In this document: one piece after another, positions 14,918 through 64,000 of the stretch
Layout of the letters: the number at the start of each line of letters is the position of its first letter
How positions within the stretch are numbered: the stretch's first letter is position 1
From: Rhizoclosmatium globosum
Lineage: Eukaryota; Chytridiomycota; Chytridiomycetes; Chytridiales; Chytriomycetaceae
DNA length: 64,000 nt
NCBI GenBank assembly: GCA_002104985.1
Contig: MCGO01000137.1
Coordinates: 37,017-101,016 of the forward strand
Reading direction: 5' to 3'
Notes under the pieces: model-generated
Database searches by the model: none
What the model was told of the DNA's origin: nothing
Seen by the model: the letters and a program-made list of their open reading frames with translations, nothing else
Translations under genes and position numbers: made by a program

Positions 14918-15726
14918 CTAAAACAATGTTGAAACTGTAGTGGGTGCTACTGGAAGTATTGTCATGTGGACTTTTTTCCCATGACTGCCAATCATAGTGA
15001 AAGCTTGGCCAATGTTGGATCGGGAAGACTGTCAGGAGTTCCTGACAAGGAGTTTGGATAATTTGCATTTCGGCAATTTCGAAGTTTGTCAGAAGGGGTA
15101 CAAGAAGCCAAACCTTTCTTATTTGAGTGTCTACTCAATTTCTTTGAGTGTCAGGACATGTTACTTGATAGCAAATTGGTTTTGCAAAAAGAAAACAGAA
15201 AGTTCCCTCAAAAAGACAACAGTAGACTGTGGAGCCAACAGGTCTCTTTGAGTCATTCCAGAGGCCACTTGTCTGTGGATCATTAGGACATGATTGATTC
15301 AAATCTGGATGCCGGCTGAGGACAACCCGTCCCTAGAACCCAAGAACCTCTTTTCACCATGGGGCTCTTTCCCAAACGGAGGGATAGTACCCTTGGGAAT
15401 TTGCCCAACCACGGCTCCATGGTCAAGGGGATAGAAGACCGGCGTGTGTGAAATCCTAACAAGCACCCCCAACCAGTGGTATGCAAGCCAGTACTACACC
15501 ACTCTCTCCAGAGTCTGGGCTAGGAGAAACCAAGGCGCCAGTCCCTAAAACGGATATACAGAGGCGACTGGTCAAGCTCCTTGGTGCTGATGAGCGAGCG
15601 ATTCAAGCTGTCCAGTTGGGAATGTGTAAAGACCAACCAACTGAGTAGCAAAAACTGCGGTCCCAGGAAAGGATATTCGGGTGGATCACAACAGACCAGA
15701 ACGAGAGCAAGGCGGAATAGAATTTC
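14918..15726. other. Unassigned region, probably repeat-derived
   Basis: About 800 bases with no supported gene. From about 15300 the sequence turns GC-richer and merges into the 172-bp tandem repeat array; short palindromic pieces such as CAGGAGTTCCTG occur at about 15034. I suspect decayed mobile-element sequence but cannot name a family. Confidence 0.35.
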
Positions 15727-16354
15727 CAGCTGTCTGACATGTCACAACCGGCAAGTGAACCGCTATGGAGCACTGCCATGGGTCCAAACGGACTTGAGAT
15801 GTGACACACCAGCCAGCCTGAACAGGAACCAAGTGGACCAGTAGCCTTAAGACACGTCGATCCAGATCAGAACCTGCTCACAAGGGGAATAGAATTCCCA
15901 GCTGTCTGACATGTCACAACCGGCAAGTGAACCGCTATGGAGCACTGCCATGGGTCCAAACGGACTTGAGATGTGACACACCAGCCAGCCTGAACAGGAA
16001 CCAAGTGGACCAGCAGCCTTAAGACGTGTCAATTCAGATCAGAACCTGCTCACAAGGGGAATAGAATTCCCAGCTGCCTGACATGTCACAACCGGCAAGT
16101 GAACCGCTATGGAGCACTGCCATGGGTCCGAACGGACTTGAGATGTGACACACCAGCCAGCCTGAACAGGAACCAAGTGGACCAGCAGCCTTAAGACATG
16201 TCAATCCAGATCAGAACCTGCTCACGAGGGGAATAGAATTCCCAGCTATCTGACATGTCACAAACTGGCAAGTGAACCGCTATGGAACACTGCCATGGGT
16301 CCGAACGGACTTGAGATGTGACACACCAGCCAGCCTGAACAGGAACCAAGTGGA
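15727..16354. repeat. 172-bp tandem repeat, about 3.7 copies
   Basis: Copies start at 15727, 15899, 16071 and 16243, each at CAGCTGTCTGACATGTC or a one-base variant, giving a strict 172-bp period. The last copy is cut off after about 112 bases. Inside each unit ACATGTCACAACCGG and GAGATGTGACACACC form partly inverted sequences. Copies differ by only a few substitutions, implying recent amplification or homogenisation. Confidence 0.9.
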
Positions 16355-39990: not shown

Positions 39991-42137
39991 ATGCACTTAT
40001 CTCTAATTGTGCCTCTTGTATTTGCCCTCCTTTGCAACACTGTTGATATTCTCGGAGAAGTACCCCACAACGATCATGACCATTACACGTACCTTGTCAT
40101 TCAAGTCGATCCCGATTTGACCTTGCGTCCTATTGATGTAGCTCATGGTCTTGGTTTCAAGTACGTCGGTCCAGTTGGTGAACTAGGGAATCAAGGATAC
40201 CACCAAGTTGCGCAGACAAAAGAAGCGATCCACAAACTCGCCGCTGTGCATCGTCGTGACAATAGTCAAAGTGATGCTCAAGTTGTTGAAAGCCACTTGG
40301 TTGGTCATCCTGCCATCAATTGGGTTGAAGTTCAAGTTCCTCACAAGATCAACCTCAGACAAGCAGCGGGTTCAGTTGAGACCACCGGTATCCAAAAACT
40401 TCGCAAGCAATATGACATCAAGGATCCTGAGTTTGGCTATCAATGGCACATCTTGAACGAGACTCCAGGCCAAATTGGTCGTGACCATAACATCAGCGCC
40501 GCTTGGGCTCAAGGTAAATTATGATCAAGTATCCTATATTTTTCTTATTCCTGCGATAGGTGTCTTCGGGAAAGGAAGCGTCGTCGCCGTTGTTGATGAT
40601 GGCTTGTTCTACGAAAGTAAGGATCTGGCGGACAACTATGTAAGAAGCTCATGTGGATGAAGACTTTAACTTATTTTGAACATCTATTTTGCTGAAGGCT
40701 CGTTTGATTTTATCCGCAATACACCTGATCCACGTCCTTTTGAAACTGCAGGTGCACATGGCACACAATGTGCTGGCGAAATCGCAGCAGTTAAAAACTC
40801 TGTTTGCGGTGTTGGTGTTGCTTATGAGGCCAAAATCAGTGGAATTAGATTGCTCGATAGCACAAAGGATAATCTAAATACCCATGCTCTTGAGGCTGCT
40901 GCCATTAACTACAAGTTCCAACAGAATCATATCTACTCCAACTCTTGGGGCCCTTCTGACAACGGTGTGACTATGGAAGGCCCATCTAAACTTTTCAATG
41001 AAGCTCTTAAAAATGGAGTCAAGAACGGACGCGGTGGACTTGGAAGCATCTTTGTGTTTGCTAGTAGAAATGGAGGAGAGAATCGTGATAACTGTGCCTT
41101 TGACGGGTACGTAAATTCGATTTATACAATCGCAGTTGGGTCCCTTGACCGTAACGATGATCATCCACAATACGGCGAAAGAGGTACAGCAAAGATGATT
41201 AGTATGTATGGAGGTGGAGATGACGATGCCATAAATGGCATGGGAATTGTAAGTTGTATCAATTCCACTGAACAATATTCTTATGATGTTCCAGGCATCA
41301 ACAAATTGGACACCAAGCGGTTCAGGTGAACAATGTACTCGGAATCTGACAGGAACCTCTTTTGCGGCACCTTTAGCCTCTGCTATCTATGCTCTAGTGA
41401 ACAGCGCTCGTCCTGACCTCACTTGGCGTGATTATCAACATCTTACAATCAAAAGTGTCAGTGCTGTTGTTGTCAATGCCAGTCACCCATCGTGGTTCAA
41501 AACTGCCTCTGGTCGCCCATTCAGCACCGTTTTCGGATATGGAAAACTTGATGCTGGTAGAATTCTGGACATGGCTCGTACTTGGAAGTCTGTAGGAAAC
41601 GCAAATACGTTCATTGACGCCCCTCGCCAAAATCCAACTGTTTCTTTGATACCTGAAGGAAGGAACAACTCTTTACAAGTATTGTTCAACATTACAGAGG
41701 CTGACAAGCAGAAGGCTGGACTATTGAAACTTGAGCATGTTGTTGTGACTGTGTGGATTGACCACGAGCGCCGCGGAGACGTTTTCATCTCGTTGATAAG
41801 CCCAACCGGAGTTGTGAGCAGGATTTGTGCAGGTAGATCTCTGGATTATGAGAAAGATGGCTTCCAGGGATGGGAATTAATGACTCTTGCACACTGGGAC
41901 GAGGAAGTTGTCGGTGAATGGGTTGTGTCTGTTAGTGATTTGTTTATTCCTGAATATTCTGGTCATCTCAGAGGTGTTGCCATCCGATTCTATGGAAGCT
42001 TGAAAGATGGTACTGTAGCTCCAGGAAATAATGACTCTTCGTCAGTAAATTCTTCCAACTCAAAAAGCGGAGCGGTTAGGTTGTTCACTGGGATGGTTGT
42101 AACCGTGGCTGTTATATCTGCGCTGTTCTTGCTTTAA
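39991..42137 (+). CDS. Kexin-like subtilisin protease B, one splice acceptor lost
   Basis: S8B paralogue, first of three in a cluster. Expected exons by alignment to protease A: 39991..40513, 40560..40639, 40688..41248, 41295..42137 (668 aa if spliced so). Catalytic Asp (VAVVDDGLFYES), His (GAHGTQCAGE), oxyanion Asn (FASRNGG, where A has FASGNGG) and Ser (TGTSFAAPLAS) are present, followed by the P domain and a hydrophobic C-terminus (MVVTVAVISALFLL). It has one more intron (41249-41294) than A. The acceptor before exon 3 should end at 40687, but the bases there are TAT rather than TAG. The only nearby AG (40697) is out of frame. The rest of the gene has no stops, so loss is recent or splicing is non-canonical. 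Confidence 0.75.
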
Positions 42138-44730: not shown

Positions 44731-46820
44731 CTACAACACAATCATGAATCCAGCCAACAATGCAACTCCAGCAGCAACAAAACCTCCAACAGCTCCGCTC
44801 TTGGTGGTGGTAGCAACGGCAACAGGTGCAACGGGGACAGCTCCAGGCTTCGCGCTTCCATAGAATTTGATCGAAGCTCCCTTGAACGTTCCAGTCGCTT
44901 CTGGGTGGCTCTTGTCGGAAACAACAACAGTCCATTCTCCAACAACTTCCTCATCCCAATGAGCAACGCTCAACAATTGCCAAGCTTGGAATCCAGTCTT
45001 GTCATCATCTTGAGCACGCCCAACCAAAATTGGACTGACAACTCCACTGGGACTGATCAAGTTGATTGAAACATCTCCACGGCGTTGGTGGTCAATAGTA
45101 ACAGTAACAGTAACGTGTTCAAGCTTCAAGAAACTTGCTTGGTTCTTGGCATCTTGAGTAACCTTGACGGAAAGACGAACATCACCTCCTTGTGGAATAG
45201 CAGTGTTGGCTGGGGCCTTGAAACCAGAATCGATGACAGTGACATTGCCGGCACCTCCAACAGACTTCCAAGTACGAGCCATGTCGAGAGTGCGTCCAGC
45301 ATCAAGCTTTCCGTAACCAAATGCAGGACTGTACATACGACCAGCAGCAATCTTGAACCAAGATGGGTGAGTCGCGTTCACAACAATGGCGCTGTTAATA
45401 CTGAGATGCTGGTAGTCACGGTAAGTAAGATCTGGACGGATGCTGTTCACAAGCGCAAAGATTCCTGAAGCTAGAGGAGTAGCAGCAGAAGTACCATCAA
45501 ACTTTCTTTGACATTGATCACCAGAACCAGTAGAAGTCCAGTCTGTTGTTGCAATTCCAAGACCCTCGGCAGAATCGTCACCACCACTGTACATGGTGAT
45601 CATTTTACCGGTACAGTTCTCGTCGTAAGTTGGCTGGGCGTCACGGCGATCCAAAGCACCAACCGCGATGGTGAAGATGGAATTGGAGTATCCATCGAAG
45701 GCACAGTTATCGCCGTTACGTCCTCCGTTACCACTGGCGAAAGTGTAGATACTTCCAAGACCACCACGGCCGTTAGTGACTCCGTTCAACAATGCAGCGT
45801 TCATCAACTCAGATGGACCGTCCATCGATTTACCGTCATCGTTAGGTCCCCAAGAGTTGGAGTAAATTTGGTTGAGTTGGAACTTGTAGTTGATTCCAGC
45901 AGCTTGGTTCGCTGGTGTGATGACACTGTTTGACTTGGCATCCCCCAAGAGACGCATACCGGTGATTTTGGCTTGGTATGCAACACCGACACCACAAACA
46001 GAGTTCTTGACTCCGGCGATTTCTCCAGCACAGGCAGTTCCGTGGCCTCCTGATTCACTGAAAGGGGCTGGGTCGGCTGTGTTACGAACAAAGTCGAATG
46101 AACCTTCAGCAATCTACAATATAAGATAAATAAATTAAGTTATGATTGTTAGTTTCGTAAGTACTCACGTAGTTATCGGACAAGTCGTTGTTCTTGTAGA
46201 ACAAACCGTCATCAACAACTGCAACGACAGATCCTTTACCAAAGACACCTTATAACAAGAAATTAAATGATGTTATAAAGATAGAAAGTTAAATCAATCA
46301 CAATACCTTGAGCCCAAGCGGCGCTGATGTTGTGATCATGTCCGATTTGACCTGGAGTCTCATTCAAGATGTGCCATTGGTAGCCAAACTCAGGATCCTT
46401 GATGTCATATTTTTTTCGCAATTGTTGCATGCCAACAGTCTCAACATCAGGTGTGGCCTGTTTCAGGTAGATCTTTTGAGGAACTTGAGCCTCAACCCAC
46501 TGAACAGCTGGGTGACCAGATAAATGACTCTCAACAACTTGAGCATCAGTCTGGCTTCCGTCACGACGGTGCAAAGTAGCGATACGACGAATTGCTTCCT
46601 TTGTTTGTGCAACTTGATGGTAGCCTAAAGTGCCAAGTTCTCCGACTGGTCCGACGTATAGGAACCCAAGGCCATGAGCAACAATAGCTGGATCAAGGCT
46701 TGAAGTTGGATCAACTCGAATAACGAGGTATGTGAAGCGCTCGTAATCATTTGGTGGGACTTCTCCTGCAAGAGTGAGGAGTGCGAGGCTGAGAGATGCA
46801 ATGAAAGAGCTGAAGCGCAT
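44731..46820 (-). CDS. Kexin-like subtilisin protease D (S8B)
   Basis: Intact paralogue on minus: exons 46820..46307, 46248..46169, 46113..44731, 658 aa, introns of 58 and 55 nt. Signal peptide MRFSSFIASLSLALLTLAG, prodomain with HRRDG basic site, mature start DPEFGYQWHILNE, Asp/His/Asn/Ser catalytic set as in A (GGHGTACAGE, FASGNGG, DGTSAATPLASGI), P domain, and hydrophobic C-terminus GFVAAGVALLAGFMIVL. Exon 3 is almost identical to that of protease A 38 kb away, whereas exon 1 differs at many positions. Likely a secretory-pathway or cell-surface processing protease with dibasic preference, by family. Confidence 0.9.
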
Positions 46821-49092: not shown

Positions 49093-50129
49093 TGTAACAA
49101 GTAAGGGTTGCTTCCCCTTTCCAGGTTTCAATCCTCGCTACCATCCTACAACACTCGCTCCTAGGTCTACGCTTACTTGCCAAAAAGCACGGTACGAATC
49201 AGTACCCTGGTCCCTCCTCCGTGGCTCCAATGATTCCAGGTACTGTCTGAAAGACCCAAGGTCTTCGCTCGCTAAGACACTAATCCCAGGCTGACGTAAA
49301 TAAAGAACAATAAAAGAAATAACACATCGCTACGCTCTACCACTCCCTCCTAATGTTCCAGTAGTCCGTTACCGTTACATCATCCACTCCGCTCATCCGC
49401 TTGTTACTCCCGAGGCAAGATCCGTTACCCCCGAGAGACCCGACTTCGCTAACATTCCTGAACGCCTCGGTGCGCCACCATAGCCCTTATGTCCATAGTG
49501 TGGAGTCTACGCTGATAGTTCCAGTCGCCGCTGGCTTTCCACCGCTTCCTCTGTGCAACAGATCCATGGGTCAGCGTTCAAGCCTACAACCCATGGCAAG
49601 GCACGTGCTCCGTGGCCGGAGGAACCTGGGGTGCTCCACACACGCTAGCCCCAGCCCCCGCCATGCACACGTACCCCACACATCCAGCCTACTCGTTCAG
49701 TCCAGAGGTAGCCCACTCCTCTCTTCGATTCGTCCCCTGCTACCTCCTTTGGTTCGCTAACCTGTAGTTCGCTAATCCGGCATCGGACTCCCTAACTCGG
49801 CCTTTCCCTTCGGTCGAGGTGACTTGTGTCTCGCTGATCCAGAGTACTCGCTCCGGCGCGTCTACCGTGAAACCGGCCTATGGTGGCGTCTCCCTAAGAG
49901 CGGCCACGCCCGTCTGTTACACGTCGACGCCGTCGCTCGCTCGAGGTCCGTCTCGCTCTGGGCGACCTTGATCGACTCGCTCGCCTTTCAATTCGCAACA
50001 ACTTTTTATTCCAATAATAGACACTGTTCTAATCTAAAGTCCCCAACTAAAATTCCAAAAATAGATAAAGAAAACGTGTCGAGTCCAAGTCCGAACCAAA
50101 CCCCAGAACGTGCGCCTGCACACGTTACA
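49093..50129 (-). repeat. 3' LTR of the retrotransposon
   Basis: 1,037 bp, bounded by TGTAAC and GTTACA. It matches the copy at 62235 throughout, except for one extra C in a CCCCC run near 49430, by direct reading. Relative to the element on minus this is the downstream LTR. Confidence 0.95.
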
Positions 50130-50150
50130 GTAGCCTCTTTTTTAACTATG
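50130..50150 (-). promoter_or_regulatory. Candidate polypurine tract
   Basis: On minus, directly before the 3' LTR, the sequence AAAAAAGAGG stands four bases from the LTR start (TGTAAC). This is the expected place for the plus-strand primer of an LTR element. The short CTAC gap is slightly unusual. Confidence 0.55.
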
Positions 50151-50277
50151 TATCCGCCCCTTGGATACACAACTGGTTCCAACTTTTCCTGACTTCTTGA
50201 ACTGGGTATAAAAACTCCACCTTGAAGAAAACTATCTAGCCCCAAAAGTCACAACTCCCTATTCTCAATCAAAAACC

Positions 50278-53200
50278 TCATTCCTCCTCTTGTGTTTGTT
50301 CACCTCCTAACCTACTACTTCTCCGAGGCCTTTGATTCTGACCTCCCCCTTGTCCTTCCACTTGTTTCCGCCTTTTCTCTGTTCTCTTAAGCTCTGCTGC
50401 AGCTTTAGTTATATAAGTGCCAACAGTCACAGGTCCCAACAGAAACTCATCGTCAGGTACAATGTCTCTGGGTAAGTCATCCACTCCTTTATACCGATCA
50501 TCAATCCATTTCCGATAAACCGTGTAAGCCCTACTTTTTATCTGTTTCTGGTATCCCCAGAAAATCTTTAATGTTTCCTCCGGTAGTGTATCGTCGGTAT
50601 GCATTTGTAATTCTCTTACACCTTTCAACTTTACCACATAAAAGAATCCTGTTCCTTCTCGTCCCACATGAGTAATGGCCAAAATTTTATGTAAAGGATC
50701 TGTGTCCTCGGTATGGTCATACTCTTCCATCTTTCTTCTCAAAGAAGGGTGAGTCGCAAACAATGGTTCGTGAGAGTACAAAGGTCTCCTCGTTAGGATA
50801 CGCCCTTGTTTCTTCCACGCAGCTATTTCAGCTTTTAACTCCTCTTCTTTTGACACTTGTCGCACTGCCCTTTCAGCTGACTCTATTGGTCTCCTATGAA
50901 CATAGGGTCTTAACCTACTCACATGTGCTTCACGTTGAACAACTTCTCCCCCCGGAAAAGTTTCCACCACTCTAAATAAAGTTCCTGAATCACCTTTAGA
51001 CTGATCCATGATTCTTACAGGTCCAACCCATCTAAAGATAAATTTCTTTGGAGCTTTCAATCTCTGCATCTCACTTTCAAGAGGTACCGCTAACCAAGCT
51101 CTGTCGCCGATCTCAAAGGTATGAGGTGCGCGGTCGTTTTCTAACGATTTTTCCCTAAGGGCCTCTTTTGCCTTGGCCACCTTTTCTTTTATAACGCTCT
51201 GAGCTGCGTGAAGTCCTTTAAGGATGTACTTCATAAACAGTTTACGCCGCTCCTCATCCTTGAGTTTTCTAGTATCGACTACGGGTCGATCAACTGCCTC
51301 TTCTAACTCAACTTCCTCGTCAGCTTCTTCATCGACAAAAACTTCAAAGATATTCCCTCGGCTCTCTTCGAATACGAAGGTCTCGGTCGACTTTACTCCC
51401 ACTGAATATTCTGGTGGGTTTATTATCCAGAATTTTCCTGCCTTGTCCCAAAGCGGTTCAGCACCAAATAAATGTAAATCTCTCCTTCGAGGATCAACAA
51501 GACTAACAGTTTTGTCTAAGTATTCCTCTTTCTCGTACGAACGATAAGTGCACTTCACGACTCCGACACCTTGTTCGCGTCCTAAGGTTACAACCGGTCT
51601 GCCATCGTTATACTCAAGATCTTCAGGCGAAGGTCCAATCTCCAAACTATTCGTTCGGCTATACACGGCCACAAGTCGAGAAACAGGTACCTTACCCATT
51701 CTTTCGTCAAAACCGTTCTCCTTCCCCGGGCTCAAACGATACACCGCGTCCCGTAAGTCAGCTCTCGATCCATCTCTCAAATAAATACAATTTGGGAAAG
51801 GACTAACTTTTGACTTCATTTTAGGATCGTACACTAAACACAACACATCCAAGTCGTGTCTTTCGAGGATGTCTCTTAGCATCATCCACAAAGGTTGATC
51901 GTCTTTGGTGTATCCGTACAGGTGTTTGCAACACTTATCTTTAAACTGCTCAACACTAACAAACTGGGCAACAGAAATCCTAGGAAGCCCTTCCCGTTTC
52001 CTATTGCTTTCCGCGTTTCCCTCGATATGTATGTTCGTTTCAGCTTCAATCCTTTCGACAGCCGCAGCTTCTTCTTCGTAAACCGCGTCATCAGGGTTAA
52101 CGTCCCTGGGACTAATTCCAACGAACATATCCGTAGGTAGTCTCGCGTCTCTACCATGCCATGCAAAGTAGGGTGTCTCGTTAGTGGTTCCATGTGGGTG
52201 CGTTCTATACGCAAACATTACAAAAGGGAGTATCTCTTCCCAATCGTTAAACTTAAATTTATCAATATACGCTCTTATCTCCTGTGATAGAGTTTTGATC
52301 ATCCTTTCGGCAGGTCCATTTGCTCTCGGCCAATAAGGCGCGGTAAAGGTCTTTTCGAATCCCAACCATCGGCTCAGTTGATGCACCAATGTACTATCAA
52401 GCGGCGGTCCTCCATCAGTGTGTAAGAAGACAGGTATTCCGTACCTACAGAATATCTGAGTCACTAATGCTTTACAAACAGTTTCCCCTGTCAAGTCAGG
52501 AATAGGGATGGCTTCAGCCCACTTCGTAAAGCTATCTACCCACACCATTATATAACGGTTTCCATTAGGGTTCTCTTTTCCCGTATCCATAAAATCTAGG
52601 AACGTTCGCTCCATTGCAAACTCTCCCAAAGGTATTGGATGTAAGTAACCAGTTTTCGTATGAAAGTCCTTAGATTTATTACAGGTTTCACACGATTCCA
52701 CGTGGTTCCTCAGATCTTTAACGATATCTGGCCACCAGAATCTATCCAACAACACGGGTAACACCTTCGCATGGCCGAAATGCCCTGCGTAGATATCGTC
52801 GTGGTGCCTCTCAAGAATTGTTCTCTTCAAAGAGTCAGGTACGCATAAAGCTATTCTTCCTGATGCCCTCCTAACCACATTTGTGTTTAAGTCCGAAACA
52901 AAGAACAGTAAGCCATTCAAGTCCAAAACCATTCGCTTTGATCTTGTAGCCATAGTTTCAGCATCCAAGTCATCGGGTATTTCGAACTTCTCTTTGAAGC
53001 GAATAATGGGTCCTAAATAAGGATCCTCCAACTGCTTCTCACGCCATGTTTTCAAGGATTCTCCTTGAGTGAAGGACATAACTCCTAAATTAATCTCCAA
53101 TTCTTCCTCACAGAGTTTTATTGATTCCATCGCAAATGTTGAAAAGTCCGACGTTGTCTTTCCATTCAGCCACTCTGTGGTGTCTACTAACATTTCTTCT

Positions 53201-56200
53201 CCTATTTTAGGGAATCCCTTCAAACTCGTGTGTAATTCGACTCTCAAGTGGTCACTCCCACTCATGTCTGCATCGATTCGAACGTCGAATCCTTCCTCTT
53301 CGATTCGCTTATCTATTAACACATGGTCGATTCTCCAAAAGGGATATTCCGTCTTATTCTTAGCCTTCAACAGCCAAGTCGCTCCCAAGTCATCAGGATG
53401 TTTCACTCGAAAACCATCATGATAGTTCTCAGTCATTCTCTTGAACCATTCCTGTTCTTCCTTACTAATAGTTGAGGGGAATCGGTTCACCAATTTGTCT
53501 TCTAATACTATCGGCGAAACATCATTCATTGTCGGCGCAATATTCATGTCTCCCAACAAGATTACAAGGTGATCTTCTCTCAAGTTGTCACAGTGTGTCT
53601 TGAGGTCGTCTAAAAACTTCAATTTATACTCTTGGCGCTCTGAGTGTCTCATTCCACTCGGTACATAAGTATTTACTATTGCTACATCTCCAAGGATCAG
53701 GGTTAACACTCGTCCTTTATCTCCATCGTAGACAAGTGTCTCTCCGCCCTTAGATGTCTCCATTCCTTCGATGGTCTTGGCTTCTACTTTTCCGTAGAGT
53801 TCCTTCCTCCACAAGATTGCGACTCCTGCGTATCCTGTTTCTGAATCATTCAACGAACAGTTCCAGTTCGGAAGCTCCTTTAAAGCAGCGAATAACTTCT
53901 TACTTTTATTATTCGTACCCATTCGTGTTTCCTGTAGACAAACGATACTACATCTCTGTGAATTTAAGAAATGTTCGACTCTTTCTGTCAAAGGTAAGAG
54001 TTTAAGGTCGTGTTCTTCGTCGTATTTCTTCAATAAACTCCGCAATCCGTTGATATTCCATGTTGAAACGTTTATACTCTTCGAGATTGGCATTGTCTCA
54101 GGTTTCTGTCTCGGTACTTTCTGCACGTCTCTCAAGCTTTTCAGGCGCTTATCTGTTTTAGACTTATTCATAAGTCTCGTTCCTAAGTCGGTCATAAGAT
54201 CGTTCGTGCTCTCAGGTTCAGCTGCTTCTGCAACCTGATTCGAAGTATATGTTTCCAAGAACAATCTACGGTGTTCGCTCTTTGCGAACTCTCTCTGTTT
54301 GTCAGTCGTAGCATATTTATTATACATGTATGTTTGGTACAAAGTTTTTAAAGGGGTATTCTCGTTCTCCCTTCCAGAATCCCCGGTCTCTTGACCATCA
54401 GCCTCTTTTTTAATCGCGTGCTTCACTCCTGTGAAGTCAACTCTTGATAGTGTATCTGGTACAACCTGGTTTTTTCCTGGTACGTGAATGATTGACAAAT
54501 CATAATCTGAAAGGGCGTAAGCCCATCTCGCGAATCTTCCTGTCAAAGCACCGCTTTTCACCAATTGTACAAGAGCTGAATGATCAGTTTCGATAGTAAC
54601 TGGTCGATCGAAGATATACTTATCGAAGCAGCCACAAGCCCATACTACCGCAAGACCTTCTCGGTCTGTGTTCGAGTACTTCTGTTCCACTTCGTTCAGC
54701 GTTCTCGAAATGAATGCAACAGGTTTTCTATCTGCTCGAGTTCCTTTCGGTCCTTTTGCGTAGAGTGCACCGCCTAAAGCCGTGCCAGAAGCATCACATT
54801 CGATGATATATTCTTCGTTATCTCCCGGTAAGTATAATATTTTATCGTCACACAAAGCTGCTATTAATTTCTTAAACGCTGCTTCGCATGCTTCTGTCCA
54901 AACCCACGATTTATCTCCTTTCAAGAGCGAGTACAACGGCGCTGCAATAGACGCGAAATCTTTAATGAATCTTCGGAAGTAGTTTCCAAAACCTAAGAAA
55001 GACTGCAATTGTCTAATTCCCGTTGGTACAGGCCAGTTTCTCAATTTAGAAATCTTATCTGGATCTCTCCTTAAACCGTCCTTCGAAATAACATGTCCCA
55101 AAAATGGTAACTCTTGGTGGAAGAGTGCACATTTCGACGGTTTTATTTTCAAATTATACAAGTACATTCGCTCCAGAACCTTCTCAAGGTGTTCAAAGTG
55201 TTCTTCCTCTGTCTTCGAATAGATTATAATATCATCCACGTATACCAACGCGAAAACAAATTTATACCCAGCTAACACTGCGTCCATCATTCGTTGGAAT
55301 GTTGGTGGTGAGTTTGTAAGCCCGAACGGAAGAACCTTAAAATGGTAAAGTCCTTGTGACGAGATAAAGGCAGTCTTCTCTTTACTCTCTTCGTCCATAG
55401 GAATCTGCCAGAATCCACTCATCAAATCCACTGATGAGAAATAATGTTTTCCCGAAACCATGTCAAAGGTCTCGTCTATTCTTGGTAGAGGGTATCTGTC
55501 AGGTATCGTTATCTGATTTAGTTTCCGAAAATCAGCACAGAATCTCCAATTACCATCGGCTTTCTTCGCCAAAACCACTGGAGCGGCATATTGAGACGTT
55601 GACGGTTCAATTACCTCATCTTTCAACATTTTCTCAATATGTTCTCGCAATATCTGAGTTCGACCCGCCCCTTCCGGGTATGGGTGTGAATGAGGTATGC
55701 GAGCTCCTGGTTTCAACTCAATTTTATGTGCAGGGACTCTTTTCGTTCCTGTCACTACATCACTTTTAAAGACATCAATATATTTTCCAATTAAGTCCAG
55801 AAGCCTCCTTTTTGTGTCTGGGCCATAAAAGTCGGAGTCCATATGACTCAAGTCAATCTTATTAAAGATTTCTTCGTTCGACTTATACTCTTCAGGCATG
55901 TAATCTCTTTTATCCTCTTTTGTGATATCATGTCCTGGTGTTGAATTCATGATTGGGTCAGGATCCAATTCCGATTCTACTATCTTCGTGTAGGTATAAG
56001 GGTCAAGCGTCTTTAAATCTTTAATAAATCTCGGATCGCGAATAGAATCTATCCATTCAGCGCGTCTTTCACGTATTCTTCGCTTCCGACGCGAAGTTTC
56101 ATCTTCTAATTCATATTTCTTGTCAATCTTCTTTGACAATTCATCGACGATGTCCTCTATATGCAACATCACCGCTCTGAACTCTTTATGAGTACGGGGT

Positions 56201-58881
56201 TTCTTCCTTCCTACTGATTGTAAGATCGGGTCGAGGAAGTCCTTTTCTTTAAACAGTTTGTTCACTGAGGTAGGTTTCTGTTCAAGCACAGACTCGAAGA
56301 AATCCTCATCTAATGAAACGTAAAGTTCTATCCGTCCTTCCGTTTCGTAGTCGGCCTCGTCTGACTCCTTCTCTGAGTCTTCGTCGGAATCCTCTTTATT
56401 CGGTGGGTCGACAAAGTCGAGTTCGTCAACCAGTATAGGTTGGACCCTAACCTCTTCTTCTAAAGGCGTTTCGGGTGGTTTGTCCTCCATTAAACAGCTA
56501 AGAAACGCGATGTTATTCCCTGGATTATGCATTTTAGCCTGTAACGCCATTTCGATCATCATTGATTGATCGTTCACGTCTATACTTTTAGGTACATCTA
56601 ATACAGGTACGTCCCCACATTGGACGGTTGCTAAGCATATTCCTTCATCTAATTTTAATTCCTCCGATCCCACATAAGTCAGTTGCATTTTAACTGCTTT
56701 CGAGTTGACATCTTCAACCCGATATATCGTATTTGCTACAAGAATTCCTCTGCTAGCCATATCAGGGAAACCTTGAAGTAAGCAATTTTCTTGGTTGTTG
56801 GGTAGCTTTCTATCCAACTCTACTAAAACTATTCTTCCTTCCATTGGTTTCAGGAGTATATTTTCTTTAAGAACCATCGTCGGTTTCTCTTCTGGAACAT
56901 ACTCTTCATAATATTTTAATGGTACACTCAATCGTTCTTTATTGTGTACTAGTTCACCATTTTTCGTGTAGAACGAACGTGCTTTCATTCTGGGACCATA
57001 GAATAGCCTATCGATTGAAAAGCACAAGTCCATTTCAAATAGTTTAATGGCTGGTGTTCCCAGTATTATTGGTCTTGGCAATCCTGGAACCAGCGAAAAC
57101 TTCACTTGTCTTTTGTATCCGTTTCTTTCGCCAATGCAAACGTCGGCGTAAAAATAACCTATCATGGTCATTGATCCCGCTATCCCCTTCGTTGTTCTCA
57201 ACGAATCATACTTGAATAGTCGAGGCCGTACACGAAATGACTTGTAAAATTCCAAAGAAGCCGAATTATGGTTCGCTCCGGTATCTACAAGTGCATCTGA
57301 AAAGTGAATCATCTCCACGAACAGACTTATAGTCGTGATTCGAAAAACTCCATCCAACATGGAATAGGTCGCAAGTTCCACGTTTATATCTTTGTAATTG
57401 GTTCCTGGGACATCGGATACTCTCGCCGTAGCTATTGATCCATCTTCAAAGACAGCGGTGAGTTTTTCTTCGAACTCAACGTTCTTTCGAGTTTTACAGA
57501 ACGTTTTTACCTTAGGTGCAAGTTCATTCTTCTTCTCACGTCCTTTCTTATTCAGAAAGATGGGGTTTTTAAGGATATTCCTTGAGGGTATAACCTCTCG
57601 GTGATTTGTACCAACTTTGGATTCTAACTCACTTATAGGTACAGCATTCCATTCGTACCTATGAATCGGCGAAATCTGGGCGTCGAATGCTTTTGAAAGA
57701 GGGTCAATCGACTCCTTCGACGGTATTTCCAATTCCATTCTTTCTTCATTCGACTCCGTTCCTTCTTGAGTCGATTTTCCAGTATGCATTCTCACATCAC
57801 TACTAATTAAGATTTTATTTTCAAAAGCTAACTCTCCATTATTAGAGGTTTCAACAGTAAGTTCAGAATCATTATTACACGTAAATTCAATAGGCACTTC
57901 GAATTGAGAAACATTATTAATTAAGTTTAAAGGTTTGTCGTTGTTGTTTGTTGTTTCTGTCAAAATGTTAATTTCATTCACAGTCTCCTCCTGTTCTGAC
58001 TCACATCTGTCGCCGGCTCGTTCAGCTTTCACCGCACGGATAGCTTTCTCTACTACGTCAGCATACGGACAGTCAGCGGCTCGATGGCCTTCCTCCTTAC
58101 AAGTGAAACACTTCTGTGGCATAGGGCGATTCGAGACTCTCCAATTCTGACGTTGATCCGTACTCATATTGAAGGTGTTTGCAATCAATTCGAACTTCTC
58201 GTCCCAGTTTTGAGGGTTCGTTTCCTGGTTCACCTGCATCAAAGCCGTGTGTAAAACCTTTTCCATGTTCGTATTAGGTCCGATTCCTTGACCATAGCGG
58301 CGTCCTTCCGACGGCGCACGGTCACGATCTCTTTCACGATCATTCCGGTGACGACTCTGTTCTCGTTTACGCTCTTCCAGGAGCACCTGAGTCAACTTTC
58401 CAATATCAGCTGATGTCTGCGCTTGTTGAAGTGCCACGTGTTGTACTGCGGTTTCCAAAGACGAAAGTCTGCTATCTTCGCGACTAGACTTCTTGTTACG
58501 TATTTCACCGTTAAAACCTTTCTTGTACAAGAATTGAGCAACCATGTCCATAGTTACACGTGAATCAGTGTACTTGACTTTCGAACCAGCCACTACAAAG
58601 TCGTGGTCATGTAGACGTTGAATTATACCGTCTTGCGTCGATTCTGGAATTTTAGCAATGAATGTATCCTTCAACGTTTGTGCGCTAACTGCTTTGTCAC
58701 CCAACAGATGATTCGCATTCTTACGCATTTCGCTTTCCTTCAGCGCATTGTTCGAACTCCATTCCCCATTAATCAAGGCTTGAGCTGCTTTAAATTGGAC
58801 AATCGACGAGGTAACCAAAGTCTCCCATGCCCAATTAAAGTTATTAAACGTAGGGTCTCGACGCAAAAGATGCCTTGAACG
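50278..58881 (-). CDS. Pol polyprotein: knuckle-PR-RT-RH-ExoIII/APE-IN
   Basis: Uninterrupted frame of about 2,865 codons. Residues counted from the first codon at 58866: zinc knuckle CFTCKEEGHRAADC (253-266); aspartic protease LVDTGANHNS (526-535); reverse transcriptase about 1060-1260 with ALVYVDDIIIYS; RNase H about 1350-1475 (ECDASG, TDREGLAV, ETDHSAL). Then an ExoIII/APE1-type endonuclease about 1598-1880 with NVSTWNINGLR, CLQETRMG, NTYVPSG, GDMNIAP, WRIDHVLID and SGSDHLRVEL. Integrase about 2010-2260 has HHCC (GHFGHAK, CETC) and DDE (LDFMD, HTDGG, GPAER; 35 residues between last D and E). An acidic extra block about 2290-2480 and the integrase C-terminal FEIGDRAWL domain follow. A chromodomain-like ending (GTGFFYVVKLKG) is possible. 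No ATG opens the frame, so it is probably reached from gag by frameshift or splicing. Confidence 0.93.
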   Translation of the reverse strand, partial: RSRHLLRRDPTFNNFNWAWETLVTSSIVQFKAAQALINGEWSSNNALKESEMRKNANHLLGDKAVSAQTLKDTFIAKIPESTQDGIIQRLHDHDFVVAGSKVKYTDSRVTMDMVAQFLYKKGFNGEIRNKKSSREDSRLSSLETAVQHVALQQAQTSADIGKLTQVLLEERKREQSRHRNDRERDRDRAPSEGRRYGQGIGPNTNMEKVLHTALMQVNQETNPQNWDEKFELIANTFNMSTDQRQNWRVSNRPMPQKCFTCKEEGHRAADCPYADVVEKAIRAVKAERAGDRCESEQEETVNEINILTETTNNNDKPLNLINNVSQFEVPIEFTCNNDSELTVETSNNGELAFENKILISSDVRMHTGKSTQEGTESNEERMELEIPSKESIDPLSKAFDAQISPIHRYEWNAVPISELESKVGTNHREVIPSRNILKNPIFLNKKGREKKNELAPKVKTFCKTRKNVEFEEKLTAVFEDGSIATARVSDVPGTNYKDINVELATYSMLDGVFRITTISLFVEMIHFSDALVDTGANHNSASLEFYKSFRVRPRLFKYDSLRTTKGIAGSMTMIGYFYADVCIGERNGYKRQVKFSLVPGLPRPIILGTPAIKLFEMDLCFSIDRLFYGPRMKARSFYTKNGELVHNKERLSVPLKYYEEYVPEEKPTMVLKENILLKPMEGRIVLVELDRKLPNNQENCLLQGFPDMASRGILVANTIYRVEDVNSKAVKMQLTYVGSEELKLDEGICLATVQCGDVPVLDVPKSIDVNDQSMMIEMALQAKMHNPGNNIAFLSCLMEDKPPETPLEEEVRVQPILVDELDFVDPPNKEDSDEDSEKESDEADYETEGRIELYVSLDEDFFESVLEQKPTSVNKLFKEKDFLDPILQSVGRKKPRTHKEFRAVMLHIEDIVDELSKKIDKKYELEDETSRRKRRIRERRAEWIDSIRDPRFIKDLKTLDPYTYTKIVESELDPDPIMNSTPGHDITKEDKRDYMPEEYKSNEEIFNKIDLSHMDSDFYGPDTKRRLLDLIGKYIDVFKSDVVTGTKRVPAHKIELKPGARIPHSHPYPEGAGRTQILREHIEKMLKDEVIEPSTSQYAAPVVLAKKADGNWRFCADFRKLNQITIPDRYPLPRIDETFDMVSGKHYFSSVDLMSGFWQIPMDEESKEKTAFISSQGLYHFKVLPFGLTNSPPTFQRMMDAVLAGYKFVFALVYVDDIIIYSKTEEEHFEHLEKVLERMYLYNLKIKPSKCALFHQELPFLGHVISKDGLRRDPDKISKLRNWPVPTGIRQLQSFLGFGNYFRRFIKDFASIAAPLYSLLKGDKSWVWTEACEAAFKKLIAALCDDKILYLPGDNEEYIIECDASGTALGGALYAKGPKGTRADRKPVAFISRTLNEVEQKYSNTDREGLAVVWACGCFDKYIFDRPVTIETDHSALVQLVKSGALTGRFARWAYALSDYDLSIIHVPGKNQVVPDTLSRVDFTGVKHAIKKEADGQETGDSGRENENTPLKTLYQTYMYNKYATTDKQREFAKSEHRRLFLETYTSNQVAEAAEPESTNDLMTDLGTRLMNKSKTDKRLKSLRDVQKVPRQKPETMPISKSINVSTWNINGLRSLLKKYDEEHDLKLLPLTERVEHFLNSQRCSIVCLQETRMGTNNKSKKLFAALKELPNWNCSLNDSETGYAGVAILWRKELYGKVEAKTIEGMETSKGGETLVYDGDKGRVLTLILGDVAIVNTYVPSGMRHSERQEYKLKFLDDLKTHCDNLREDHLVILLGDMNIAPTMNDVSPIVLEDKLVNRFPSTISKEEQEWFKRMTENYHDGFRVKHPDDLGATWLLKAKNKTEYPFWRIDHVLIDKRIEEEGFDVRIDADMSGSDHLRVELHTSLKGFPKIGEEMLVDTTEWLNGKTTSDFSTFAMESIKLCEEELEINLGVMSFTQGESLKTWREKQLEDPYLGPIIRFKEKFEIPDDLDAETMATRSKRMVLDLNGLLFFVSDLNTNVVRRASGRIALCVPDSLKRTILERHHDDIYAGHFGHAKVLPVLLDRFWWPDIVKDLRNHVESCETCNKSKDFHTKTGYLHPIPLGEFAMERTFLDFMDTGKENPNGNRYIMVWVDSFTKWAEAIPIPDLTGETVCKALVTQIFCRYGIPVFLHTDGGPPLDSTLVHQLSRWLGFEKTFTAPYWPRANGPAERMIKTLSQEIRAYIDKFKFNDWEEILPFVMFAYRTHPHGTTNETPYFAWHGRDARLPTDMFVGISPRDVNPDDAVYEEEAAAVERIEAETNIHIEGNAESNRKREGLPRISVAQFVSVEQFKDKCCKHLYGYTKDDQPLWMMLRDILERHDLDVLCLVYDPKMKSKVSPFPNCIYLRDGSRADLRDAVYRLSPGKENGFDERMGKVPVSRLVAVYSRTNSLEIGPSPEDLEYNDGRPVVTLGREQGVGVVKCTYRSYEKEEYLDKTVSLVDPRRRDLHLFGAEPLWDKAGKFWIINPPEYSVGVKSTETFVFEESRGNIFEVFVDEEADEEVELEEAVDRPVVDTRKLKDEERRKLFMKYILKGLHAAQSVIKEKVAKAKEALREKSLENDRAPHTFEIGDRAWLAVPLESEMQRLKAPKKFIFRWVGPVRIMDQSKGDSGTLFRVVETFPGGEVVQREAHVSRLRPYVHRRPIESAERAVRQVSKEEELKAEIAAWKKQGRILTRRPLYSHEPLFATHPSLRRKMEEYDHTEDTDPLHKILAITHVGREGTGFFYVVKLKGVRELQMHTDDTLPEETLKIFWGYQKQIKSRAYTVYRKWIDDRYKGVDDLPRDIVPDDEFLLGPVTVGTYITKAAAELKRTEKRRKQVEGQGGGQNQRPRRSSRLGGEQTQEEE

Positions 58882-61307
58882 TCATGATATCGCTATCAGT
58901 AGAGTCCATGGGCAACGTTTGAACAAAGTTCTTGATGAACTCATCATCGGTCTTGTACCTCTTGTCTTGACCCACATAATCAGCTTTCAAGGCGTCGACG
59001 GCTCTCTTCCATGTTTCACGAGTATCCTTGTTCAAAGGTTCATTATGGAAGGACCTGACTCTTGTATCGAAGTTATTGTTTCCATACAATACACCCGTCA
59101 GTTTATCGGCAAAATCAGTGAAACCTGTCATGGTATTCCGAACCAATGTCAGAAACAGCATTATTGAGGCTCTTAACTTGTAAGCCAATTCCGGAAACTT
59201 CTTGGTTTACTGACTCCGTCGCTGTAGCTAGACGTTCACTGTGTCTTGCAATCAAGTTTGCATGACCCTCAGCTTTTCTGTTCGAATGAACCAACTCATC
59301 CAACATAGTTCTCGGACCTTCTTGTTCTGGTTCCTCTTCCTGGTCTTGAGGTTCATCCGGGATAATTTCTACCGGCGTCAATGCATTATTGGGATATGTT
59401 TTTCCCAACTCATTCATCAGTTTGCGATAGTTATCATGGCTGTACGCTCTAACTCGAGTACCAGTCCTTGCTTCAAGGTGTTCTTTAACTTCCTTGAAGA
59501 TTTGGCGAAGGGTTACGTCACTGGTAACCTCAATGTTATCTGGGATCCGGAGGGTACCGAAGTCTCAGTCCAAGAGTAAGATACTCCGTTAATACTGAAT
59601 TGAATCATGATTCTAGGTGTTGTATTGTTAAACCAAATCCATAAGACACCAACGATCAAGGGTGTCCATAACAGGGACATCATAACACTCACGGGAACAA
59701 GATAGGTTGAGGACCAGCCATCAATACTCGAAATACCGGTCGTCGGTTTAATTATAGAAGCAACTATCAAGTTGAAGAGGAGCCGATTCTTGGATCTTTT
59801 TGAAATACAACCTCTCCTCCCACCGCTTCTTAAAACTTCATCTCGGGTCATTTTCAAGCAATTATTATTCAAATAAACTCGATTAAACTCATTAAATGAT
59901 GTAGATTCAACAACACACTTCAAAGAATAAAGGATTACTTCAGAAATAATGAAAGTAACAAATTCAGTTACGCTTGTAGGATCAGCTTCGCTAGTTCCTT
60001 TCGCGAGAATATCTTCCTCCAGAGGATGAGTAATTTGGACGTCCGCGGTTTTGAGGGACGTGGATCCCATTCACCTGTTCGAGAATGAATCCTTGATCAC
60101 CTCTTCCTTCAACCTCACCTCTGTGGTCGTCATATTCGCGCTGTCCATAGCGATTACCTCTCATACGGTTATTACGGTTATTTTTCTTTTGAGCTCGATT
60201 GGCTTTTCCGAATCCTTTTGCTGGGCCAGATAACCTCCGATCTGCGCTCCAGTCAATGCCGGCAATTCCGATATTGTCTTTTCGTAAGTGGCGTAGATGC
60301 GGTAATCCCCGATTGGAGATTAATTCCGGCCACAACTTTCTGAAGGTTCGAGAGCTCTTCTTCTCTCGCCTTTTTCAAGAAGAACGTCTTTCCTACAGAA
60401 AGAAGGACTTAGAATAATCATATAGTCCCCTCCAAGTCGAAACTTGGGTACGCAGATATAAAAATCTGGAAATTCCTACAACAACGCTCCACAACTCACC
60501 CAAAATAAAGTCAACTTACTTTCATCCCATCCGTGGTTCCCGATTGTCCTTTCCTTGGGCACGGATCCAACTGGCTTGGTTCGCATAATCCAATTCTTCT
60601 TGAAGAGTATTGACGTTACGCCACGCGTTAGTCAGCTGTTCATTGAGAGAATCGATTTGTTCTTTAAGTCTGAAAACTGTTCCTCGTTGTTTACCATAGC
60701 ATCGGCTCCTTCGGGAGGAGTCGACCCTGTAGTCACGGTTAGTTTGGCCTCGGCTTCCTTCAAGCGCACTGAAAAGTATCGCATTGCTTTTTGTGATGGT
60801 CGCGACGACCAGTCAAATGCTTGCAACGGTGTTCCAATTCAACAACCTTATTCTTGGCAGCTGTGTACTTGGTAACCGTCTTGTCAAGTTGCTCCATAAT
60901 CAAATCGCGATCTTTCTTGACAGTTTCAAGCTCAGTCGCAGTCTCAATCGCTTGGTCTTGAACCGCAATCAAATTGTTTTGGACAGCGGTAAGCTTGGCA
61001 CGCAAGTAGGTTTCGGGAGTCGTTGCCAACGGTTCTCCCATGTGAAGTTTCTTGACAGCCGTTTCCAAGAGTTGTCTTGGTCAACGTCAATTACCATGGT
61101 TGCACTTGGCAAGGGAGAGAGTTCATCCACAATCTCGTCCTCGGCCGTAGATGCCAAAGTGGACGCGCTTCCTTGAGTTTCAACAAGTTCTAATCACAGT
61201 TATTCAGTGTACCTTCGCAACAGTATACAAACTATTGGTCTTGAGATCACACTGTCCTCAATGTCGTCAAAGTCGTAATCAATAAGCTCTTCTTCCGTTT
61301 GGCTCAT
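58844..61307 (-). CDS. Gag-like region in overlapping frames, with a spliced 5' intron
   Basis: Coding-like stretches follow one another in changing frames. Start MSQTEEELIDYDFDDIED at 61307, then a 63-nt GT..AG intron (61252-61190) that joins in frame to a segment rich in Glu and Ser. A coiled-coil stretch (AVQNNLIAVQDQAIETATEL) lies about 61068-60760, an Arg/Gly/Asn-rich basic stretch about 60335-59991 (NRNNRMRGNRYGQREYDDHR), and a frame with one hydrophobic helix (SVMMSLLWTPLIVGVLWIWF) at 60070-59513. Next come DVTLRQIFKEVKEHLEARTG on to 59115, and a last frame to 58844 with ETWKRAVDALKADYVG. Junctions near 61070, 59560, 59125 and 58860 are one-base shifts with no intron signals. They could be programmed frameshifts, mutations or sequence errors. 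Confidence 0.6.
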
Positions 61308-61512
61308 GTTTTTAGGGTGTTTTTTGTTTTGCACTGAACAAAAAGAAAGAAAGTCTTTTAAAGTTTCTAAATCAGGAACGTGATTCTGAGAACGTGCCCT
61401 TTAGGTTGATTGTGATTGGTTGGTTTGCAAAAAACATGTCAGTGTTCTTTTATTAGCTTCACATCTCACGTCAAACAACACGTGTATACTCGTCATTACG
61501 GTTCTGGACTTC

Positions 61513-61944
61513 TTAATCGTCCTCATTATCCGAAACTAGGTCTGGCATTGATGTATCATCAGAGATGTCAACAAGTTCTGGTAAATCGTCCAACGTTGCC
61601 AAATCTGGTGTTGATAGTTCACAGTACAATGCTAAAGCATTCTGTAGAAACTCGCTTGGCGAAGTAGGAAATCCATATCTTGTACTCTGTACTTGATACA
61701 GGATCAAATCGTCTTGAATCCGAGTTCCACGAAAGTATTGTAGTGTTCCCAACAGCTCCTGTTGTTCCGGTGTGAGGGACTCATCGACGACTCCGGTTTG
61801 TTTGTCACAATCCCTCGGACAAGCTACTGCTTTCTCGGCCTCTGTCAAGGATGACAAGGTCAACGTCTTCGTCATTCGCTGAGTTTCCAGAATGTATCCG
61901 CGAATCCAAATTCGGAAATCGATTTTCACATCACTTATGGCCAC
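61513..61944 (-). CDS. First frame of the retrotransposon, function unknown
   Basis: A 143-aa frame, the most 5' coding candidate after the leader. It is acidic, with CPRDCDKQTG (two Cys) in the middle and ending DDTSMPDLVSDNEDD. It has no similarity that I recognise to gag, env or known accessory proteins. It may be a separate small protein or the first exon of gag, since the next start (61307) follows by about 200 bases and both have acidic ends. Confidence 0.4.
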   Translation of the reverse strand: MAISDVKIDFRIWIRGYILETQRMTKTLTLSSLTEAEKAVACPRDCDKQTGVVDESLTPEQQELLGTLQYFRGTRIQDDLILYQVQSTRYGFPTSPSEFLQNALALYCELSTPDLATLDDLPELVDISDDTSMPDLVSDNEDD

Positions 61945-62214
61945 GCAGTCATCTAAGTGATATCATGTTTTGTTATTTGTTCATGCCGTTGAACCCAAAA
62001 ATCCATTCCAACTAAATAAGTCCAACTTTAAACAAAGTACATCCTTTTACTTCGATTTTAAATTGTTTATTTATACATAGCTTCTCCAATAAACTAGTTC
62101 AGCTCTCACTAAGAGAGGCCTCATGTTTTAAACTACATGGAGTCTCATGTCTAATACATGGTACTACACACATTCCCGTGTGGTCAATCTCACTCACAAC
62201 TCTAGGTTGTCGCT

Positions 62215-62234
62215 TTTACGTTGGGCCCCCATTC
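62215..62234 (-). promoter_or_regulatory. Candidate primer-binding site
   Basis: On minus, immediately after the 5' LTR, the sequence reads GAATGGGGGCCCAACGTAAA. The TGG near its start is common in tRNA-primed elements, but I cannot match the rest to a particular tRNA 3' end. Self-priming, as in Tf1-type elements, is an alternative. Confidence 0.35.
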
Positions 62235-63270
62235 TGTAACAAGTAAGGGTTGCTTCCCCTTTCCAGGTTTCAATCCTCGCTACCATCCTACAACACTCGC
62301 TCCTAGGTCTACGCTTACTTGCCAAAAAGCACGGTACGAATCAGTACCCTGGTCCCTCCTCCGTGGCTCCAATGATTCCAGGTACTGTCTGAAAGACCCA
62401 AGGTCTTCGCTCGCTAAGACACTAATCCCAGGCTGACGTAAATAAAGAACAATAAAAGAAATAACACATCGCTACGCTCTACCACTCCCTCCTAATGTTC
62501 CAGTAGTCCGTTACCGTTACATCATCCACTCCGCTCATCCGCTTGTTACTCCCGAGGCAAGATCCGTTACCCCGAGAGACCCGACTTCGCTAACATTCCT
62601 GAACGCCTCGGTGCGCCACCATAGCCCTTATGTCCATAGTGTGGAGTCTACGCTGATAGTTCCAGTCGCCGCTGGCTTTCCACCGCTTCCTCTGTGCAAC
62701 AGATCCATGGGTCAGCGTTCAAGCCTACAACCCATGGCAAGGCACGTGCTCCGTGGCCGGAGGAACCTGGGGTGCTCCACACACGCTAGCCCCAGCCCCC
62801 GCCATGCACACGTACCCCACACATCCAGCCTACTCGTTCAGTCCAGAGGTAGCCCACTCCTCTCTTCGATTCGTCCCCTGCTACCTCCTTTGGTTCGCTA
62901 ACCTGTAGTTCGCTAATCCGGCATCGGACTCCCTAACTCGGCCTTTCCCTTCGGTCGAGGTGACTTGTGTCTCGCTGATCCAGAGTACTCGCTCCGGCGC
63001 GTCTACCGTGAAACCGGCCTATGGTGGCGTCTCCCTAAGAGCGGCCACGCCCGTCTGTTACACGTCGACGCCGTCGCTCGCTCGAGGTCCGTCTCGCTCT
63101 GGGCGACCTTGATCGACTCGCTCGCCTTTCAATTCGCAACAACTTTTTATTCCAATAATAGACACTGTTCTAATCTAAAGTCCCCAACTAAAATTCCAAA
63201 AATAGATAAAGAAAACGTGTCGAGTCCAAGTCCGAACCAAACCCCAGAACGTGCGCCTGCACACGTTACA
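62235..63270 (-). repeat. 5' LTR of the retrotransposon
   Basis: 1,036 bp, TGTAAC to GTTACA, matching the copy at 49093 except for one C. On minus this is the upstream LTR, so it should carry the promoter. Confidence 0.95.
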
Positions 63271-64000
63271 CGCCAACCGCGCCTCGTCGCAGCCAACGGC
63301 CGCCCAGTCCGCCGCAACTCTCCTCGCAAAACAACAACAACAGCAACAGCAACAGTTCTCGCCGCAGCAGCAGTACAACGCCATGGTCGCTTCTGGCATC
63401 GTCCCTCTCTCCGCCGTGCCCCAGGCCTACTCCTCGCAGTCCGCACAACAGCAACAGCAACAAACAGCTCAGAACCAGCCTCAGATCATCGGCTCGCAAC
63501 AGGCCACCTCCTCGTCCTCCTCCTCAAAGAAATCATCCCTCAGTCACAATGTCGTTGGAATGCATTACAAGGTTGGAAAGAAGATTGGTGAAGGATCTTT
63601 TGGAATGGTATATGAAGGTACGTCCTCAATCTTCACTTGTCGGCAATGATTGGAAGTTCTAACGTTTTTGGGTTTTGTAGGAGTGAATGTGATCAATAAC
63701 CAACCTGTTGCCATCAAGTTTGAGCCAAGGAAAACGGATGTTCCTCAGTTGCGTGATGAGTACCGTACGTTCAAGATTCTTGCTGGATCAGGTACAATGG
63801 TCTTTGTTTTCAATGGCGCCCAATTTTTGTCGCAGCCACCACACCTTAATTGGATTCAGCTGACCTTTTTTGCACTTTTAACATTATAGTGGGTGTACCA
63901 AACGTTTACTACTATGGTGCTGAGGACTATACAATGTTCTTTGCTCGGATATGTTGGGACCTACCCTTGAAGATATGTTTGATCTTTGTAAACGGAAATT
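63271..64000 (+). CDS. Casein kinase 1-like gene, 5' end replaced by LTR, runs off window
   Basis: Exons 63271(?)..63617, 63681..63791 and 63890 onward join in phase. The first is a low-complexity N-terminus with poly-Gln and poly-Ser, followed by the CK1 N-lobe: YKVGKKIGEGSFGMVYEG (Gly loop), QPVAIKFEPRKTDVPQLRDE (ATP Lys), then VGVPNVYYYGAED. From about 63917 the frame must shift by one base to continue as MLGPTLEDMFDLCKRKF, the expected CK1 sequence. This copy therefore has a frameshift or the sequence has an error there. The frame is open into the LTR without a start codon of its own before it, so the true 5' end is missing. The catalytic loop lies beyond the window. Confidence 0.8.

Follow-up and report, generated by a model that had tools for sequence, protein, structure and literature searches.

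The window analysed here, i.e. the whole stretch of 64,000 nucleotides from the chytrid Rhizoclosmatium globosum (contig MCGO01000137.1), contains on its minus strand a long terminal repeat (LTR) retrotransposon of the Ty3/Gypsy type (Metaviridae; 49093-63270), whose pol polyprotein carries a nuclease domain of the ExoIII/AP-endonuclease type between RNase H and integrase. This domain belongs to the endonuclease-exonuclease-phosphatase (EEP) superfamily and covers residues 1598-1880 (53227..54075; minus strand, like all features of the element given below), as judged from Pfam, a family score and an active-site alignment. Long interspersed elements (LINEs) use an APE endonuclease for target-primed reverse transcription and do so without an integrase. 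An intact-looking nuclease of this kind in an LTR pol is unusual, because LTR elements already bring an integrase, by which they apparently insert.

The pol frame comprises 2862 codons (50278..58866, the frame being open from 58881) and has a zinc knuckle near its start. A Pfam scan along pol gave the order CCHC knuckle, RVT_1, RNase H, Exo_endo_phos, Integrase_H2C2 and rve: the knuckle (PF00098) covers residues 251-267 (58066..58116), the reverse transcriptase (RT; RVT_1) residues 1101-1260 (55087..55566), RNase H (RT_RNaseH / RT_RNaseH_2) residues 1323-1455 (54502..54900), and the integrase (52330..52842) consists of an H2C2 zinc domain (2009-2066) and a DDE core (2090-2179) whose D, D and E were recognised by eye. 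The scan returned no match to a protease, which is visible solely as a DTGA motif (active-site motif DTGANH, residues 528-533, 57268..57285). In a PDB sequence search the closest solved structures were those of Ty3-G, both for the RT (E 1.4e-75) and for the integrase (E 1.4e-21). The Pfam order and the 2862-codon frame thus bear out the claim of an earlier note on this DNA that RNase H, EEP domain and integrase follow each other in one frame of an LTR pol.

The element is bounded by a 5' LTR (62235..63270; ends TGTAAC...GTTACA) and a 3' LTR (49093..50129; a direct repeat of the former, with termini TG...CA), which in a self comparison over 1037 bases show one gap and zero mismatches (99.9% identity). 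Such near-identity implies a recent insertion, and the element appears to represent a young, recently active Ty3-type family. Directly inside the 5' LTR lies a primer-binding-site-like stretch (62217..62234), and directly inside the 3' LTR a polypurine tract, read by eye (AAAAAAGAGG, 50134..50143). A 13-mer from the primer-site-like stretch has seven genomic occurrences, all of them immediately inside LTRs of this family, and beyond the family's own copies the genome holds no exact match to it that could indicate the primer tRNA. The 3.3 kb separating the pol frame from the 5' LTR contain short open reading frames (ORFs) only, and the remainder of gag is not visible as one frame in the window copy; neither the four short ORFs upstream of pol nor the pre-RT region, except for the knuckle, matched a family above cut-off. 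Frames of 3901, 3609 and 3275 codons in related copies each unite RT, EEP domain and integrase. The core and the C-terminal part of the integrase are separated by an insert of about 200 residues (51457..52083, limits by eye), which gave no family above cut-off in the domain scan. In summary, the LTRs, the polypurine tract, the order protease motif-RT-RNase H-integrase and the short target duplications at some copies of the family are as in other Ty3/Gypsy elements, whereas the ExoIII-type nuclease and the integrase-region insert set the window element apart.

Identity and constraint of the nuclease domain

The Exo_endo_phos match is full-length (pol residues 1602-1873) and lies inside the single uninterrupted frame. 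All eight catalytic positions of the APE1 type are retained in the alignment (N1604, E1646, Y1734, D1773, N1775, D1847, D1872 and H1873), in agreement with the complete active site that had been read from the letters. Membership of the ExoIII family was assessed with the NCBI exodeoxyribonuclease III model (xth, TIGR00633; curated cut-off 99.05 bits). The domain of the window element (136.2) and those of two further lineages described below (lineage B, L041, 131.3; lineage C, L039, 121.8) score above this cut-off, whereas the nuclease from a LINE in this genome (L055, the one LINE tested) scores 70.7; the latter belongs to the same superfamily and has the same eight catalytic residues, but misses the equivalent of W280. 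A PDB sequence search with the domain gave 58 matches up to E 10, none of them named a LINE nuclease; the best structural match was Mth0212. By family score the domain therefore appears ExoIII/APE1-like and not LINE-like, as the earlier note had suspected. The ExoIII/APE1 repair enzymes (Mth0212, B. subtilis ExoA, human APE1, plant ARP) share its fold, active site and family score, but they are stand-alone proteins, whereas here the domain is fused within an LTR polyprotein. A chance match or a nested LINE could be ruled out on the basis of the one frame, the full domain, the ExoIII score and the place directly before the integrase at 41 loci.

Protein-level constraint was compared by pN, i.e. 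in terms of amino-acid change; synonymous sites are saturated between families. For the domain, the RT-RNase H part and the linker between RNase H and the EEP domain, respectively, pN amounts to 0.101, 0.068 and 0.200 between the window copy and C214 (with 0.049 for the integrase and 0.137 for the linker between EEP domain and integrase), to 0.331, 0.261 and 0.531 against C113, to 0.254, 0.238 and 0.552 against C114, to 0.256, 0.237 and 0.553 against C401, and to 0.177, 0.055 and 0.227 between C130 and C257. As the domain stays below this linker in all five pairs from the lineage of the window element, it is constrained, though less so than RT. We consider it very probable that a functional ExoIII-type domain has been kept by selection.

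Distribution and history of the domain

The genome (56.9 Mb, 420 contigs) was searched and the matches to EEP domain, RT, integrase and PF03372 were combined per locus. The domain is present at 48 of the 63 integrase loci examined, at 41 directly before the integrase and at 7 upstream of RT. The order RT-EEP-integrase is found at 39 loci, EEP-integrase with RT not among the listed matches at 2 and EEP-RT-integrase at 7; RT and integrase without a match to the domain occur at 11 (ten loci plus one copy of the window element's lineage, C384:150523), and integrase only at 4. The question raised in the earlier note, namely whether other copies lack the domain, is hence answered by retention at most loci and absence from one copy of the lineage concerned. 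A search with the domain listed 61 match pieces, and at four loci the domains are 100% identical over 283 residues, which rules out a single oddity.

Lineage A, which includes the window element, comprises families whose domains are 100% to 44% identical. Two further Ty3-type lineages with ExoIII-type domains were observed (L039-L044 and L089-L099), one of them with the domain before RT. In lineage B (C13, C203, C383, C90, C387, C397 and C54; pol frames of 985-1523 codons) the order is RT-EEP-integrase, and in lineage C (C368, C412, C301, C383, C146, C347 and C411) the domain precedes RT; both orders were borne out by Pfam in the pols scanned, two from lineage B and one from lineage C.

B and C fall together in a single branch of the RT tree (100/100), away from A and from the four included elements without the domain (100/100). 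The domain is present in two well-separated Ty3-type branches. Because B and C share one RT branch and yet have two domain orders, the domain has moved to another position in pol within that branch. In the EEP tree, A forms a clade (100/100), as do B and C together (97/99); the support for A, B and C combined (69/71) is such that one capture and two captures are not distinguishable. Topology tests gave p-AU values of 0.035 for A with LINE, 0.091 for A, B and C with LINE, and 0.356 for A, B and C with ExoIII/APE. As neither of the latter two is rejected, an ExoIII origin rests on the family score and not on the tree alone. The EEP tree sets the window domain apart from the LINE rows; the four LINE rows are not one group and one of them has a very long branch. 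Capture of a host repair gene, as once proposed, finds no support in this tree: the element domains group with neither of the two host genes that it includes; an APN2-like host gene (L072, on C113), recognised by eye and read exon by exon, was excluded from it.

At the protein level, a search for long domain-bearing proteins with the window pol yielded none among 1203 candidates, and the sole find with a lineage-B pol (2327 candidates) was a bacterial-type RT-ExoIII fusion. With the domain alone, a piece from R. globosum came first (P0001, 216 residues, BCR33DRAFT_739933; 100% identical to C257:84767-85414), followed by ExoIII-type proteins (best 120 of 146 matches). One scan of viral contigs gave no relative of the element. 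As a side observation, P0119 (467 aa) and P0121 (954 aa) are reverse transcriptases (RVT_1) bearing an N-terminal ExoIII domain; their additional Pfam domains are presumably of the group-II-intron type, and in P0121 an HNH-like stretch was recognised by eye. They possibly represent an unrelated prokaryotic RT-ExoIII fusion.

Insertion and possible role of the nuclease

ExoIII/APE enzymes cleave DNA at abasic (AP) sites and process 3' ends by cleaning or trimming them. A domain inside pol travels with RT and integrase and meets the cDNA first, which favours a role on the cDNA. We therefore lean towards the reading that this is a recently active Ty3-type family whose pol would have acquired, and kept, an ExoIII/APE-type nuclease acting on cDNA. 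Within a virus-like particle or pre-integration complex, the nuclease would work alongside RT, where it would free cDNA 3' ends of blocks, mismatches or damage and would cut the cDNA at abasic sites; ends cleaned in this way would let RT extend and integrase use them. As a specific assignment, 3'-end cleaning or AP-site removal stays tentative, at slightly less than even chances.

Alternatively, the domain could supplement RNase H in work on RNA-DNA hybrids, i.e. in the removal of the tRNA primer or polypurine-tract RNA or in the degradation of template RNA. Bacterial ExoIII can act on such hybrids, and in lineages A and B the domain comes immediately after RNase H, but an RNase H is already present in the scanned pols of all three lineages, so that no need for a second such activity is evident, and we regard this role as unlikely.

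How the element inserts can be read from its flanks. By eye, the alignment shows the D, D and E as well as the HHCC residues of the integrase in all three lineages. Exact target duplications of 4 bp were found at four of the eight testable places of the window element's family (C324 CGCC, C416 CGCT, C184 AACT and the solo LTR C76 ATCC; a chance 4-base match is expected at 1 in 256 each), and were absent at the window copy, C135, C372 and C101; a ninth place, C293, comprises an LTR and the primer site at the end of a contig and is not among the eight counted. Lineage B has such duplications at C90 (CTAC; LTRs 100% identical) and C13 (CTGG), and lineage C at C301 (ACGC; LTRs 99.7% identical), with the boundaries at all three set by eye. 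The first 90 bases of the window copy's right flank (63271-64000) equal the right flank of C324 (90/90), the right flank of C135 equals that of C324 and the window copy except for a small gap in a repeat, and C372 shares the right flank of C184; these shared flanks are probably assembly joins, a chimeric contig end, or the result of recombination between near-identical copies. Since 4-bp duplications are the signature of a DDE integrase, insertion can probably proceed without the nuclease, and with good confidence the sequence evidence points to insertion by the element's own integrase, with a 4-bp stagger, and not by the EEP nuclease.

This bears directly on the idea that the domain opens the target DNA like a LINE APE, or steers the integrase to damaged or AP sites. 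Many LINEs use an EEP domain as their target nuclease, and in lineages A and B the domain adjoins the integrase and would be at the target. In lineage C, however, it lies upstream of RT, far from the integrase, the precise TG...CA ends and 4-bp duplications in three lineages are what integrase alone would give, and the domain scores ExoIII-like, not LINE-like. We hold this idea to be improbable, and target nicking as an integration step, considered in the earlier note, is not supported in view of the duplications together with the DDE residues.

Some entry titles call Mth0212 a DNA uridine endonuclease, which would suit a counter-defence in which the EEP domain clears uracil, or uracil-derived AP sites, resulting from host deamination of the cDNA. 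In the sister copies C324 and C184 the RT was at first comparison found in pieces of 62-94% with stops; their DNA has just 2 to 14 mismatches per 3.7-4.1 kb stretch plus many small gaps, which are probably assembly errors. An excess of C>T/G>A is seen in none of five sister copies (C324, C184, C135, C372 and C416), and, given the few mismatches, hypermutation or repeat-induced point mutation (RIP) of these copies was ruled out. The lack of such an excess is at most weak evidence against counter-defence and does not decide the matter, as the same is expected if the EEP domain works well, and we give this role little chance. Finally, that the domain is an inert captured passenger, as might be argued from its faster evolution than RT and from certain LTR-element accessory ORFs without clear benefit (described in the accessible part of PMC5408684), is very improbable in view of the catalytic residues retained in 15 of 16 alignment rows, amino-acid change under the level of the RNase H-EEP linker in five of five pairs, and presence at 48 of 63 integrase loci.

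Several observations weigh against the favoured reading of a retained pol nuclease acting on cDNA. Ten loci of the same genome carry RT and integrase without any match to the domain, which is thus not needed for the LTR-element lifestyle in general, and one lineage-A copy (C384:149040) lost it by deletion: this copy matches C257 at 97.6% identity as far as roughly the domain start, after which the domain is missing, and it also has a TGA stop and a frame change. In every one of the five pairs the domain changes more than RT, by a factor of 1.07 to 3.2, with the maximum for C130 versus C257, where the domain's pN is not far under that of its linker. The W280 position holds Phe, Met or Ala in lineages B and C; it is a weak guide, because 2 of 16 ExoIII/APE rows have no Trp there either. 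The window copy itself has no target duplication, and Pfam reported the H2C2 domain only, and no rve, in the one C and two B pols. Moreover, the conserved residues, as aligned, cannot separate an AP endonuclease from a 3' exonuclease or another EEP activity.

Precedents and biological meaning

Accessory domains in LTR elements are already known (PMC6338049 and PMC5408684, accessible parts). The nearest precedent, according to the available part of PMC11673190, is the Exo_endo_phos domain of the Kuafuorterviruses of animals, found by a hidden Markov model scan and 'only present sporadically' there. These too are LTR elements with a reported Exo_endo_phos, but, compared by that text description, they differ in their animal hosts, in the sporadic occurrence of the domain and in belonging to another RT lineage with a motif of the form IADD/VADD/LADD, whereas the window RT has YVDD at residue 1209. 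The claim that the architecture is unfamiliar was therefore mostly right, save for this sporadic animal occurrence reported in 2024. The LTR elements of bdelloids resemble the window element in having a captured nuclease, which is shared between retroelement types; theirs is a DEDDy exonuclease, i.e. of a different fold, and is encoded in a separate ORF3 instead of inside pol (PMC5408684, same parts). A literature search outside subscription journals and Repbase reports gave, in the text available, no paper that presents the architecture as a fixed Ty3-type feature, and the arrangement is not described in the accessible portions of PMC5348765, PMC9926174, PMC3248453, PMC8778642, PMC5890265, PMC5718144, PMC10799480, PMC3441728, PMC3391268, PMC6058741, PMC8605555, PMC6338049 and PMC5408684. 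In the sections at hand, Exo_endo_phos lies in non-LTR elements in a locust retroelement paper, is a name in a motif list only in an ERV-K paper, and appears as Exo_endo_phos_2 in a table of the LTR section of a camel paper (counts 60, 39, 5 and 10, beside L1-type domains), unexplained in that text.

Elsewhere in the window, two neighbouring ORFs encode rhodopsin-family 7tm_1 receptors (595-1596 and 2337-3287; Pfam), and genes with subtilase and proprotein-convertase P-domains lie at 5981-7330, 41283-42137 and 44731-45957 (Pfam). Self comparison revealed a 2-kb stretch of 90% identity (5994-8035 versus 44747-46804) and a tandem repeat whose unit measures about 173 bases (15708-16354).

On the established view, LTR elements depend on RT, RNase H and integrase, and any repair of the cDNA falls to host enzymes; to our knowledge a partner of RT for 3'-end repair or proofreading is not known in them. 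A more far-reaching possibility, which we consider doubtful at present, is that the chytrid Ty3-type elements are old groups in which an ExoIII-type nuclease, found in two deep RT branches and at two places in pol, would be a standing part of replication, i.e. RT's own 3'-end repair or proofreading partner. The compact, ExoIII-like nature of the domain makes its activity amenable to a test-tube assay. A conserved repair-type nuclease in the pol of several families, and at two positions, suggests that the element itself takes care of cDNA damage or end quality.
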